Origin: a virus
IMG/VR virus record: IMGVR_UViG_3300021440_000091
Coordinates: 1 to 30,189 of that record
Direction: 5' to 3' (one strand)
Length of the DNA: 30,189 bases
In this document: positions 15,096 through 29,611 of the stretch, in pieces
Position numbering within the stretch: the first letter of the stretch is position 1
How the letters are laid out: every line of letters begins with the position of its first letter
Made by a program: the position numbers and the translations under genes
Notes under the pieces: generated by a model
Seen by the model: only the letters and a program-made list of their open reading frames with translations
Database searches by the model: none
What the model was told of the DNA's origin: nothing

Positions 15096-15360
15096 TATTT
15101 TCTCCAATAGAAAAGAATTTGTCTATACCTGTATATCTGGTAAAATCTTGGGCAGCCTCTTTGCCATACTCTTGTTCAATTGTTGTTACATAGCTTTGAA
15201 GAGCTTTGGAACAAGCTAGAACTGTATCTTCATAAGGTGTGTTCCGACGATTCATAACATCGGAAACCCATTCGTAAAACTGCCGGTCACTCGAACTAAA
15301 ATGACGGTAACCTTGAGCAGTTTGTTGTAATTCGTTAGGCAGCTTCTGTAGCAGACTCAT
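15076..15360 (-). CDS. Small helical head-region protein, 94 residues
   Basis: A 94-residue, mostly helical protein with aromatic residues (RQFYEWVSDVMNRR, CSKALQSYVTTIEQEYG) and no recognised motif. AGGAG stands before the ATG, and its first 26 nt overlap the end of the chaperonin gene. I do not recognise it. It is placed between the co-chaperonin and a charged 136-residue protein in the head-assembly part of the operon, so an assembly role is possible. Confidence 0.5.
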   Translation of the reverse strand: MSLLQKLPNELQQTAQGYRHFSSSDRQFYEWVSDVMNRRNTPYEDTVLACSKALQSYVTTIEQEYGKEAAQDFTRYTGIDKFFSIGENNERKNT

Positions 15361-15661
15361 TAATTACTCCTAAAATATCTGAATCATTCAAAAGAATGTA
15401 AATTCCTTCGGGGTCTGCGGGATTAAAAATTTGCTTTCCAGCATATTTTGCCCATACAACAGTATCCCCTACTTTAACCGAGTTACTCCATTGAAGATCA
15501 GGATGTTGTCCTGCTGTAGAGCCTAAAGAAACGATAGTTCCTTTGTCTTTAGCTCCAGCCTCCATTTTTTCATCGGCAGCCAGAATAATTCCAGATTTTG
15601 TTTTCTTTTCCAATGTACTTTTAACTAGTACACGGTATCCAATAGGAATAATCTCAAACAT
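15335..15661 (-). CDS. Phage GroES-like co-chaperonin (Cpn10)
   Basis: A 108-residue protein with clear GroES features. The N-terminal strand IPIGYRVLVK is followed by the mobile loop TKSGIILAADE (residues 21-31) with the GroEL-binding tripeptide I25-I26-L27, matching GGIVL of E. coli GroES at nearly the same numbering. Then come KGTIVSLGS, VKVGDTVVWAKYAGKQI and the closing YILLNDSDILGVI. GroES forms a heptameric lid on GroEL. A phage version would retune host GroEL for phage proteins, as T4 gp31 does for capsid folding. Its place between scaffold and capsid genes, with a TAATG coupling to the scaffold stop, strongly suggests a role in capsid protein folding. The RBS GGAG lies 8 nt upstream. 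Confidence 0.9.
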   Translation of the reverse strand: MFEIIPIGYRVLVKSTLEKKTKSGIILAADEKMEAGAKDKGTIVSLGSTAGQHPDLQWSNSVKVGDTVVWAKYAGKQIFNPADPEGIYILLNDSDILGVINESATEAA

Positions 15662-18509: not shown

Positions 18510-20027
18510 TTAGTATCCTGTAATTTCTGATCTACCAGAAGAGTAGTCCAAAGTTTCTAGATATTCTTCATAATCTTCCTCTTCTTCCACTTCTTTTTTG
18601 GAAGAACCTTCTTGAAGTTTATCAATAATCAAACCAATATAAGAAAGAGCATCTACTTGGTCATCGTGTTTTCCACGAGGAAACAATAAACATTCTTCTT
18701 CTAAATTAAAGTAATTGTCATCCCGTTTATCAAATTTAATCCCACCAGCTCGCATTCTAGCTTGTATAGAACGTGCTCTAGTTACTTTGTCAGAACTAGG
18801 AGAAATGGGAAGTAAATTTAAAAACGTATTTGTTTCTAACATTTGTTGACGTAAAAAAGGTCCAATTGCTTTTTCAATTTGGCCTTTTTCAATAGATATT
18901 GCTGTAGGATTGTACACTCGTTGCAATCCAAGAAGAGTGGTTACAATTTGTTGAGAGTCCATTCGTTCTCGTATAGTTTTAATAATGTACAGCATACCTG
19001 TTTCATCCATTGCAGCAACCACAAATACAGACCAGTCTGCTGTGTCTTTAGTAGACACGGCTAAATCTGTACCAATATAAAAATTGTAATATTTCTTCCA
19101 ATTTTGTTGGTTAAAGTTTTTAATGTCTATTTCAGAAAGCTCTTTAAAATCGGACCTTCTAAAATAAGAAACAGACTCGTCAATAGGAATATTTAAGTAT
19201 TCTTGCGAATAACCATCAGGCATCCCTTGGTCAATATATTCAGCACGTTTATTAATAAAGTACTCTTTAGTATACCTTTGGGGCCACAAAAGAGCACTAA
19301 AATCAGGGTTATGTGCTTTATATTTTACTGAGAGCCATTTGGCTTTTTTGTTTGTATTATATGTTTTAAGTTCTGTTTGTTCCGTGTATTTGTCGGACAA
19401 TTTAGGCATAAGGGATTCAAGCAAACTGTCGGAATGGAGAATAGTACCAACATACCGCACAATTCCCCTGTACGATTTACAGGGCAATAACGCTGAATAG
19501 AACCATCTTTTGAATTTAAGGCGGCGTTCTTTGTTAAGTACGATTTCATCATTTTCCAAATCGTCACAGACAATTAAATCTGGTCTACGATTATCCCATT
19601 TTAAACCACGAACCTTTTGCTCAGAACCTTTGGCAGAAATCCGAAATTCCCACCCATCTTCACATAAAACAATTACATCATCTTCGGTTTCTTTTGTAAA
19701 CCCTTTAATTTTAAATAGATTACGTAATTGTTCATTTTCAGCCAATTCCTTTTTAATATCCCCAAGGAACTGTACTGCTTGTGAAATAGTGTCTGAAACA
19801 ATTAACACATACTGCCGTTCACGAAAACAAACAGCAGCTAAAGTATAAGTGTGTGATAAAGCAGTTGTTTTAGCATGTCCACGAGGAGCAGCAATAGCTA
19901 CTTGCTCATGCAAACTACAAAAATATGTCCACCATTCATAGTGGCATTCTGGAGATTCAACTGCACCATCAAAGTTCTTTTGTAGGAGAGAACTAGCAAA
20001 ACCTTGAATTACATCTGCTGTAAGCAT
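18510..20027 (-). CDS. terL: Terminase large subunit
   Basis: A 505-residue packaging motor with both expected domains. The ATPase has a Walker A-type loop APRGHAKTT (residues 47-55) and a Walker B segment LIVCDD (151-156) with the catalytic Glu at 159. The RNase H-like nuclease has Asp321 in FYIGTDLAVS, Glu380 in ISIEKG and the acidic pair in HDDQVDA (455-459). It cuts concatemers and pumps DNA into the portal. The start is unusual: there is no good RBS close to the ATG, and the tRNA-Trp gene ends only 5 nt upstream, so the leader is formed by tRNA sequence. Small terminase lies upstream but is separated by two HNH genes, a lysine-rich ORF and the tRNA. Confidence 0.95.
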   Translation of the reverse strand: MLTADVIQGFASSLLQKNFDGAVESPECHYEWWTYFCSLHEQVAIAAPRGHAKTTALSHTYTLAAVCFRERQYVLIVSDTISQAVQFLGDIKKELAENEQLRNLFKIKGFTKETEDDVIVLCEDGWEFRISAKGSEQKVRGLKWDNRRPDLIVCDDLENDEIVLNKERRLKFKRWFYSALLPCKSYRGIVRYVGTILHSDSLLESLMPKLSDKYTEQTELKTYNTNKKAKWLSVKYKAHNPDFSALLWPQRYTKEYFINKRAEYIDQGMPDGYSQEYLNIPIDESVSYFRRSDFKELSEIDIKNFNQQNWKKYYNFYIGTDLAVSTKDTADWSVFVVAAMDETGMLYIIKTIRERMDSQQIVTTLLGLQRVYNPTAISIEKGQIEKAIGPFLRQQMLETNTFLNLLPISPSSDKVTRARSIQARMRAGGIKFDKRDDNYFNLEEECLLFPRGKHDDQVDALSYIGLIIDKLQEGSSKKEVEEEEDYEEYLETLDYSSGRSEITGY

Positions 20028-20032
20028 TTTAT

Positions 20033-20106
20033 TGGCAAACCCTTAAGGAATCGAACCTCAACCAAAAATTTTGGAGATTTTTGTGCTACCACTACACCAA
20101 GGGTCT
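20033..20106 (-). tRNA. trnW: tRNA-Trp (CCA anticodon)
   Basis: I folded this by hand on the minus strand. Acceptor AGACCCT/AGGGTTT (one G-T pair), D-stem GTGT/GCAC, anticodon stem AAAAT/ATTTT with loop CTCCAAA (anticodon CCA, reads UGG), a 4-nt variable region, T-stem TGAGG/CCTTA with loop TTCGATT, discriminator G and an encoded CCA end. The anticodon loop and the G73 discriminator match E. coli tRNA-Trp. The anticodon stem is all A-T and the T-stem has a G-T pair, so it is weaker than a host tRNA but complete. It lies inside the late operon, 5 nt before terL, so it should be released by processing of the operon transcript. Confidence 0.9.
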
Positions 20107-20123: not shown

Positions 20124-20258
20124 TTATTTAGATTTCTTTTTCATTTGCTTTTTATCAAAAGCAATTTCTTTTTTAGAACCTTCCTTCATCCCCTTTTTTT
20201 CTTTATCTTTAGGGGATTTTTCAAAAATTTTCTTTGAATTATGTTTACGAGTAGCCAT
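20124..20258 (-). CDS. Lysine-rich mini-protein, 44 residues
   Basis: An ATG at 20258 overlaps the stop of the upstream HNH gene (TAATG), the coupling used across this operon. The product begins MATRKHNSKKIFEKSPKDKE and ends KKQMKKKSK; more than a third of residues are Lys. There is no hydrophobic core, so it is probably disordered and able to bind nucleic acid. It ends 18 nt before the tRNA-Trp gene. Function unknown; possible roles are DNA binding or a by-product of an AT-rich spacer. The coupling favours a real gene. Confidence 0.45.
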   Translation of the reverse strand: MATRKHNSKKIFEKSPKDKEKKGMKEGSKKEIAFDKKQMKKKSK

Positions 20259-20560
20259 TACTTACGTTCCTTTTTGGAAGTTTGAGATTTAAGAGAGCCG
20301 TTTTTATTCCGGCTAAAGCTTCTATTTTGACTAGCAGGAACTGCACGAAGGTTAGATTTAGTAGTAGAACCACCTTTAGACATAGGTGTTTTATGGTCTA
20401 CATCTAATCCATCACCTTTATGGACTTTCCCCTCTTTCTCCAGAATCGACCTCGCTTTGTTCCTCTCCGCCCGATCCTTCAACCTCTTCCCATTCTGATG
20501 GCTGTGATCCCACGCCTTCTCCTTCTGGTAGTCCCGTTTCCCATTTTTCATAAAAGGCAT
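20258..20560 (-). CDS. Small HNH endonuclease, possibly packaging-linked
   Basis: A 100-residue basic protein (MPFMKNGKRDYQKEKAW...) with an HNH core. D55-H56 is in LDVDHKTPMSKGG, N70 in KSNLRAV and N79 in ASQNRSF. This short form is frequent next to phage terminase genes, where HNH proteins can assist the terminase nuclease at cohesive-end or concatemer cutting; it could equally be a homing enzyme. The first 143 nt overlap the upstream HNH gene in another frame. GGAG stands 7 nt before the ATG. The N-terminal half (about 20430-20545) is clearly richer in G+C than its AT-rich surroundings and than its own C-terminal half, a sign of mosaic origin. Confidence 0.8.
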   Translation of the reverse strand: MPFMKNGKRDYQKEKAWDHSHQNGKRLKDRAERNKARSILEKEGKVHKGDGLDVDHKTPMSKGGSTTKSNLRAVPASQNRSFSRNKNGSLKSQTSKKERK

Positions 20561-21691: not shown

Positions 21692-21720
21692 ATTATATCA
21701 TAAATAAAATAAAAAGTCAA
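21692..21720 (-). promoter_or_regulatory. Leftward sigma70 promoter for the late operon
   Basis: On the minus strand TTGACT and TATAAT are separated by exactly 17 nt, one mismatch from full consensus. Transcription would start near 21685, and the 45-nt leader contains a small hairpin (GAGTA/TACTC) before the RBS of the exported-protein gene. It should be read by host RNA polymerase. The sequence around the -10 (TTATGATATAATATA) is shared with the promoter of the HNH gene at 27268-27296. Confidence 0.8.
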
Positions 21721-24965: not shown

Positions 24966-25057
24966 GCGGGCATGGTGGAAATGGTAGACACAGCGGACTT
25001 AAAATCCGCCGCTTGCTTAAAGGCAGCATCCCGGTTCGACTCCGGGTGCCCGCACCA
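24966..25057 (+). tRNA. trnL: tRNA-Leu (UAA anticodon)
   Basis: Acceptor GCGGGCA/TGCCCGC, anticodon stem GCGGA/TCCGC with loop CTTAAAA (anticodon TAA, reads UUA), a long class II variable arm, T-stem CCCGG/CCGGG with loop TTCGACT, discriminator A and an encoded CCA. All stems fold without mismatches that I can see. UUA is frequent in AT-rich genes, so it probably supplements the host pool. Confidence 0.95.
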
Positions 25058-27188: not shown

Positions 27189-27263
27189 CAGTCTATCGTA
27201 TAATGGATAATACAACAGCCTTCTAAGCTGTGAATCTAGGTTCGATTCCTAGTAGATTGACCA
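27189..27263 (+). tRNA. trnR: tRNA-Arg (UCU anticodon), intact copy
   Basis: Acceptor CAGTCTA/TAGATTG (one G-T), D-stem GTAT/ATAC, anticodon stem ACAGC/GCTGT with loop CTTCTAA (anticodon TCT, reads AGA), 4-nt variable region, T-stem CTAGG/CCTAG with loop TTCGATT, discriminator A and an encoded CCA; 75 nt. The first base is C, as in the broken copy. The segment from the last stem base through the anticodon loop and 3' stem strand is identical to the broken copy at 27304-27316, but the rest of the molecule differs. It lies within the inserted cassette. Confidence 0.93.
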
Positions 27264-28645: not shown

Positions 28646-28950
28646 TGAAATTTATTTTTGTAGACCGCCGGCAACAAGAGAAGGTACAGTTCCATGTAGA
28701 TGGCTTGCGTCAAATGGAGCCTTATGCTTTGGCAATCAAGGCGTTTGACTCTAATAGTATTGAACCTGCTATCCAAGGTGGGACATGCTTCATGGCGCAT
28801 GAGCGTGATGTTGATGTGGTTGTATTGGCTTTGGCCAAGGCACACCCCGGTAAAGAAGTAACTGTATGGAGTATGGAATCCGCTGGTGTTTGCCCTCCTG
28901 CAGAATTTGTTCAAAAGAAAGTGACCAAAGATGGTATCCTCCCTGTCTAA
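28642..28950 (+). CDS. Unrecognised protein, 102 residues, upstream of the amidotransferase
   Basis: GAGG precedes a double ATG; I use the first, which overlaps the previous stop (ATGA). The protein begins MMKFIFVDRRQQEKVQFHVDG. It has an alpha/beta pattern with CFMAHERDVDVVVLALAKAHPGKE and a C-terminal stretch PAEFVQKKVTKDGILPV. It overlaps the amidotransferase gene by 20 nt, so the two are probably made together. I do not recognise the family. Confidence 0.6.
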   Translation: MMKFIFVDRRQQEKVQFHVDGLRQMEPYALAIKAFDSNSIEPAIQGGTCFMAHERDVDVVVLALAKAHPGKEVTVWSMESAGVCPPAEFVQKKVTKDGILPV

Positions 28951-29611
28951 TCGACTGAAAGTTAGTACCCTATACTCAGGGTTTTATGGTGATAACGGCT
29001 ATCCTTTTGCCAATTTTGCTGAGCGTGTAGTCAGGGCTGATGGCCCAGAGGACATACAAGACAAGGACTCTATGCTTATTCTTTGGGGGGGTACTGATAT
29101 CAACCCCAAATTGTATGGGCATGAAGAATCCAAGTACACGTATGCAGGTGCTCCTCGTCGTGATTTGGTGGAATGGAAGCTTCTTCATAAAGCGGTTGCC
29201 CTTGGTATCCCCATTATTGGTATTTGTCGTGGTGCTCAAATGCTGTGTGCAGCAGCAGGTGGGTTTCTTCTGCAAGATGTACCCAATCATGCAGGATATG
29301 GTCACATGGTTACCACAAAGGATAACACCGAGTTTTACACCAATACAATACATCACCAAATGATGTGTGGTTTGGAAAAGACAGATCATGAGTTGGTTGC
29401 TTGGACTACTCCCAAAGACCCCAACAAACACTACACTTATCAGAAAGATCAACGGTATATTCTTCCCGAAGGGTTTGTTGAGCCGGAGTTTGTGTTCTTT
29501 AAAAAGATTAAAGGATACGCTATCCAATGGCATCCAGAAGCGATGGACTTGGACTCTCCCGCCACAAAATACATTCACGAATATCTGGAGAAAACCTATG
29601 ACAAAGGATGA
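28931..29611 (+). CDS. Class I glutamine amidotransferase / PuuD-like hydrolase
   Basis: A 226-residue protein with the full catalytic set: nucleophile C99 in GIPIIGICRGAQML, and H201 and E203 in IQWHPEAMD. The motif LILWGGTDINPKLYG (49-63) matches the peptidase C26 / gamma-glutamyl-GABA hydrolase branch (LLPGGGDVNPALYG type), which supplies ammonia from glutamine or hydrolyses gamma-glutamyl amides. No synthetase domain is fused. Known phage members often sit beside ATP-grasp or amidoligase genes that make isopeptide-like bonds; none is visible here, but the window ends about 580 bases later. The start at 28931 has a weak RBS and overlaps the upstream gene by 20 nt, so it is less certain than the fold. 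Confidence 0.88.
   Translation: MVSSLSNRLKVSTLYSGFYGDNGYPFANFAERVVRADGPEDIQDKDSMLILWGGTDINPKLYGHEESKYTYAGAPRRDLVEWKLLHKAVALGIPIIGICRGAQMLCAAAGGFLLQDVPNHAGYGHMVTTKDNTEFYTNTIHHQMMCGLEKTDHELVAWTTPKDPNKHYTYQKDQRYILPEGFVEPEFVFFKKIKGYAIQWHPEAMDLDSPATKYIHEYLEKTYDKG

Follow-up and report, generated by a model that had tools for sequence, protein, structure and literature searches.

How the large terminase gene of this phage is translated is not obvious from its start, since a tRNA gene on the same strand ends almost at the ATG and occupies the place where a ribosome-binding site would be sought. To answer this, we analyzed the window (the whole stretch of viral DNA, 30,189 nt) and compared the junction between the tRNA and terL with the corresponding region of related phages.

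A tRNA-Trp gene ends five nucleotides before terL

The features of the junction are the following.

20033–20106, minus strand: tRNA-Trp, anticodon CCA (ARAGORN; Rfam tRNA, 59.1 bits)
20028–20032, minus strand: 5-nt spacer ATAAA between the tRNA CCA and the terL start (sequence)
18510–20027, minus strand: terL, large terminase subunit, 505 aa, ATG at 20027 (PHROG 38, Pfam, N-terminus alignment)
20043–20045, minus strand: in-frame TAA inside the tRNA (sequence; ORF list)
20040–20044, minus strand: AAGGG, the sole SD-like motif before terL, in the T-stem/acceptor 3′ strand of the tRNA (sequence)

The preliminary description had reported a complete tRNA-Trp with an encoded CCA 5 nt before the terL ATG, and ARAGORN, Rfam and the sequence itself agree on this. 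The interval that it gave, 20027–20106 with no strand, needs correction: the tRNA itself occupies 20033–20106 on the minus strand, and 20027 is the first letter of the terL ATG. The Rfam match (59.1 bits, E 1.5e-10) is full-length (1–71 of 71). The acceptor stem, AGACCCT/AGGGTTT, forms seven pairs, the discriminator is G and the 3′ CCA is encoded in the DNA at 20035–20033; the gene has the cloverleaf, CCA anticodon, G73 and encoded CCA of a tRNA-Trp. An Rfam scan of the tRNA-Trp/terL junction returned no ribozyme family, and a theta ribozyme (HDV-like) trailer at the tRNA 3′ end was rejected on this ground. A whole tRNA inside a packaging operon also differs from the usual attP pattern, so that a role as an integration site seems unlikely. 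The tRNA leader UUUAUU could form six pairs with AAUAAA of the spacer (shuffle p 0.03, uncorrected); because the p value is uncorrected and the pairing is absent from the cloverleaf-constrained fold, we treated it as chance.

terL lacks a ribosome-binding site of its own

The terL product matches PHROG 38 at 2e-83 and Pfam Terminase_6C. An earlier start is impossible because of the in-frame TAA at 20045–20043 within the tRNA, and the TerL N-terminus (M-LTADV...) aligns with those of relatives from residue 1–2. The start assigned in the preliminary description is therefore correct, and an alternative start with its own ribosome-binding site, which we looked for, is excluded by the TAA and the homologous N-termini. 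That terL has no separate ribosome-binding site was likewise borne out: no SD-like site lies 5–10 nt upstream of its ATG, unlike most other genes of the window, which carry a GGA/AGG/GAG SD-like motif at that distance (43 ORFs inspected, some of them doubtful). Since these other genes mostly use SD sites, the missing SD is specific to terL, which is an exception in a phage with SD-dependent starts. AAGGG is indeed the only SD-like motif before terL and lies in the tRNA acceptor/T-arm, but its distance from the ATG is 12 nt and not 13 nt as first given. Its pairing with the aSD amounts to about −5 kcal/mol, and it could serve as a weak, distant SD for terL.

The tRNA and terL are likely to share a transcript

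On the minus strand, the order is HNH gene, 44-aa ORF, tRNA-Trp, ATAAA, terL and then the portal gene. The upstream features are listed below.

20258–20560, minus strand: HNH endonuclease-like gene (PHROG 4590, Pfam HNH)
20124–20258, minus strand: 44-aa lysine-rich ORF, its ATG overlapping the HNH stop (TAATG) (ORF list)
21692–21720, minus strand: promoter-like site, the best one ahead of the packaging operon, TTGACT-17-TATAAT with TG before the second hexamer (consensus scan)

The consensus scan detected no promoter-like site near the tRNA on the minus strand, and neither a promoter (by that scan) nor a terminator was found between the tRNA and terL. Because the two genes lie on one strand with no promoter-like site detected between them, a shared transcript is likely. 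Its probable source, judged from the promoter scan, is the site at 21720–21692, in a scan whose total count of promoter-like sites was not above that of shuffled sequences. Same strand, a 5-nt spacer and no intervening promoter-like site constitute the geometry of tRNA punctuation.

Two further tRNA genes, Leu(TAA) at 24966–25057 and Arg(TCT) at 27189–27263, lie on the plus strand, probably the early strand. The tRNA-Leu shows the usual arrangement: a leader of 22 nt that contains AAAGGG separates it from the next ATG. The plus strand also carries a class-I glutamine amidotransferase/Peptidase C26-like gene (28931–29611). In the head-gene region, a small minus-strand ORF (15335–15661) resembles a GroES-like co-chaperonin, and the annotation of a relative from Manatee Spring (L009) gives a "chaperonin 10 kd subunit" close to the equivalent place.

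tRNA genes before terL are rare and differ in spacing

We compared 127 distinct terL loci, taken from viral contig scans, for which the N-terminus and upstream DNA were available. A tRNA (Trp, Gly, Thr or Asn) ended ≤25 nt from terL in 8 of these 127 loci, the window included.

Window: tRNA-Trp, 5-nt spacer without SD
L001/L130 (one contig): tRNA-Gly, 10-nt spacer with AGGAG
L138: tRNA-Gly, 12-nt spacer with AGGAG
L017: tRNA-Gly, 8-nt spacer with AGGAG
L038: tRNA-Trp, 13-nt spacer, GAGG
L030: tRNA, Asn by visual reading (not called by ARAGORN, below the Rfam cut-off), 24-nt spacer, AAGG
L028 and L029: tRNA-Thr (missed by ARAGORN, matched by Rfam), 1-nt spacer without SD, terL start GTG

The placement of a tRNA immediately ahead of terL is genuine but rare. 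The comparison of spacing in related phages that the preliminary description had proposed indicates that the 5-nt spacer is not conserved, most of these loci having 8–24 nt with an SD of their own. The spacers of the window and of L028/L029 are too short to hold one; in L028/L029, GAGGG lies in the tRNA-Thr acceptor strand, 6 nt from the terL GTG. A single-sequence search of bacterial genomes gave no match, and a profile search gave four MAG contigs only.

A junction apparently shaped by repeated tRNA insertion

Four of the closest relatives had a readable upstream gene (L011, L012, L014 and L015; TerL 64–69% identical). In these, the stop of an HNH-type ORF overlaps the terL start, the ORF ending at +1 or +4. 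The HNH gene of the window has the same tail as in those relatives (SLKSQTSKKER...), here overlapping the start of the 44-aa ORF instead of terL. The 44-aa ORF and the tRNA are extra DNA between HNH and terL in the window, and no relative of the 44-aa ORF was found among the fetched terL loci. Since these two elements occupy the HNH/terL junction, the inherited HNH–terL coupling is, to judge from gene order, lost in the window. In L001 and L138, a tRNA-Gly is placed directly between HNH and terL. A stop/start-overlap motif was present in 77 of the 127 loci, which is an upper bound, as ATGA alone is no proof of overlap and the ORF check covered only the four relatives named above.

In the TerL tree, the window belongs to a fully supported clade with L011–L015, five relatives that all lack an abutting tRNA. 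At least five changes are required on this tree to account for the abutting tRNAs, so the slot before terL was filled by tRNA genes repeatedly. It would seem that tRNA genes have been inserted again and again at a start that was once coupled. This picture, like the lack of conservation of the short spacer, gives no support to the earlier suggestion that the level of the packaging motor is tied to tRNA processing.

Several loci showed other peculiarities around terL. In L024 (2517–3020), an ORF with a TTG start lies 2 nt behind a tRNA-Thr; its N-terminus is terL-like (LELTADKI) and the remainder of HNH type, and terL proper starts ~400 nt later. It looks as if an HNH gene was inserted at the terL start and part of the start duplicated. 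In L022 (2318–2720), an HNH-type ORF starts with TTG 1 nt after a tRNA-Thr CCA. Two distant relatives (L009, 3901–3967; L048, 2922–2988) have an int-alpA RNA (Rfam, 40.3 bits, above the gathering threshold) in the leader immediately before terL, where the family name would not lead one to expect it. Finally, in L071 (2635–4797) and L236 (3308–5470), a ~600-nt insert splits terL near Walker A, at about residue 43–50. A LAGLIDADG-like stretch (AGFFDGEG) in the L071 insert hints at an intron that carries a homing endonuclease; neither of the two inserts matched an intron family of Rfam.

Translation of terL behind the tRNA

We give about an even chance to the view that terL is made mostly, and at a low level, from a processed, near-leaderless 5′-monophosphate message, an arrangement that would be tolerated; we do not think that the junction has evolved as a regulatory switch. 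The tRNA-Trp and the 44-aa ORF would have been gained where close relatives have the HNH/terL stop/start overlap, and the tRNA, on the same strand with no promoter found in between, would be co-transcribed with terL. RNase P and host 3′-end nucleases would then cut out the tRNA, leaving a terL leader of ≤5 nt, AUAAAAUG, and the processed message would begin at AUAAAAUG or closer to the start codon. That the leader would be this short if the tRNA is excised had been anticipated in the preliminary description and follows from the geometry of the 5-nt spacer. In a tRNA-deletion design, the stretch retained is ATAAAATG. On the intact precursor, the folded tRNA would place its CCA end 6 nt ahead of the start codon, within the region that the 30S subunit needs, and therefore standard SD initiation should be poor. 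Unfolded or unprocessed transcripts would add some terL translation, and weak initiation would be tolerable for a low-copy protein of which few molecules are needed.

RNase E, which processes tRNA precursors, prefers a U as the second base behind its cleavage site (PMC5222698, PMC3985628). This preference fits CCA^AU and A^AUG at the window junction, the motif being a weak one and the use of RNase E an assumption. Leaderless messages need a 5′-phosphorylated AUG and may use 70S ribosomes, and GUG is no substitute for AUG (PMC4611024); in P. acnes, GUG is used in leaderless initiation (PMC3848588). Five extra bases before the AUG may lower leaderless translation, and expression or processing of the tRNA may itself be inefficient. 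In L028/L029, some route other than leaderless initiation must, on the evidence of the start codon, be at work, because their terL starts with GTG, which leaderless initiation did not accept in the studies reviewed in PMC4611024. Because of this GTG and the well-placed GAGGG inside the tRNA, these two loci are the best candidates, as far as their sequences tell, for the opposite route, translation from uncut RNA.

On that opposite route, the 3′ strand of the acceptor would double as the SD, so that each transcript would become either a tRNA or a terL message and terL would be made only from unfolded or uncut RNA. The AAGGG 12 nt before the window terL ATG and, in L028/L029, the GAGGG at 6 nt from a GTG that follows the tRNA-Thr after 1 nt are what one would expect, as are the acceptor motifs AAGGG or GGGGG of the tRNA-Thr genes 1–2 nt before the HNH ORFs of L022/L024. 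The 12-nt spacing of the window, however, exceeds the usual 4–9 nt (PMC4611024), and the folded cloverleaf pairs the entire AAGGG motif. We also surveyed tRNA 3′ ends ≤6 nt from an ATG, with ORF checks, among the matches listed. There, tRNAs abut other phage genes that start 0–6 nt after the CCA, for instance a tRNA-Val 6 nt before a heptose adenylyltransferase-like gene (L304) and a tRNA-Gly 6 nt before a 2OG-Fe(II) oxygenase-like gene that lacks an SD-like motif (L270). Among those matches, SD-like acceptor strands occurred in 6 of 13 abutting cases, several of whose ORFs are doubtful, not clearly above the ~32% seen in tRNAs without a nearby ORF. A general rule that abutting genes use an acceptor-strand SD, suggestive in the terL set, was not demonstrated in the wider set; abutting genes without such a motif, as in L270, also count against this route. 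For the window, we hold it to be somewhere between improbable and simply unlikely; among the relatives, use of the acceptor strand as a ribosome-binding site appears most plausible in L028/L029.

The same survey bears on a plainer reading, namely that the tRNA placement is a neutral accident of compact packing and that it is AU-rich and coding-region features which govern terL translation, as the existence, among the matches listed, of other genes 0–6 nt behind a CCA (L304, L270) would allow. Against it, release of the tRNA must cut the transcript beside the start codon, so that some effect on the message is expected, and the strong SD in the spacers of the tRNA-Gly relatives suggests that the start needed one; we regard this reading as unlikely. 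We consider still less probable that the ancestral mode is kept, with ribosomes from the 44-aa ORF reinitiating at the terL ATG or entering, assisted by S1, at the AT-rich leader. Close relatives do have a stop/start overlap at the HNH/terL junction, and a further overlap joins the HNH stop to the 44-aa ORF, but the stop of this ORF is separated from the terL ATG by 96 nt that include the folded tRNA, and reinitiation normally requires much shorter distances.

Comparison with known systems

Mixed tRNA–mRNA transcripts and tRNA punctuation are already known, and the window represents a rare variant; we found no published case of leaderless translation of a terL directly behind a tRNA. If excision does make the terL 5′ end, the junction would be a case of mitochondria-like tRNA punctuation by a phage in a bacterium, and of near-leaderless translation of an essential late gene. 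If it reflects only compact packing, it would still be a good example of tRNA gene entry into phage operons. Its interest lies mainly in the natural series of spacers in the relatives (1, 5, 8, 10, 12, 13 and 24 nt, with and without SD), which could be used for testing translation behind a tRNA.

As in animal mitochondria, the tRNA abuts the coding sequence, and its excision would define a 5′ end with little or no leader. By contrast with mitochondria, the window has a single such junction among genes that mostly carry an SD, bacterial nucleases and ribosomes would be involved, and excision is a prediction. In bacterial mixed operons, as in the window, a tRNA precedes a protein gene within one transcript. 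A normal leader and ribosome-binding site serve the protein gene of the E. coli thrU-tyrU-glyT-thrT-tufB operon, whereas the spacer of the window is only 5 nt and lacks an SD. Phage tRNAs with theta ribozymes at their 3′ end have been described (PMC10879173). They resemble the window in that formation of the tRNA 3′ end within a phage transcript is a possible control point, but the 5-nt spacer leaves no room for a ribozyme before terL. Lastly, HNH–terminase packaging modules have, like the window, an HNH gene near terL, joined in the closest relatives by a stop/start overlap, whereas in the window this coupling is broken by the 44-aa ORF and the tRNA.
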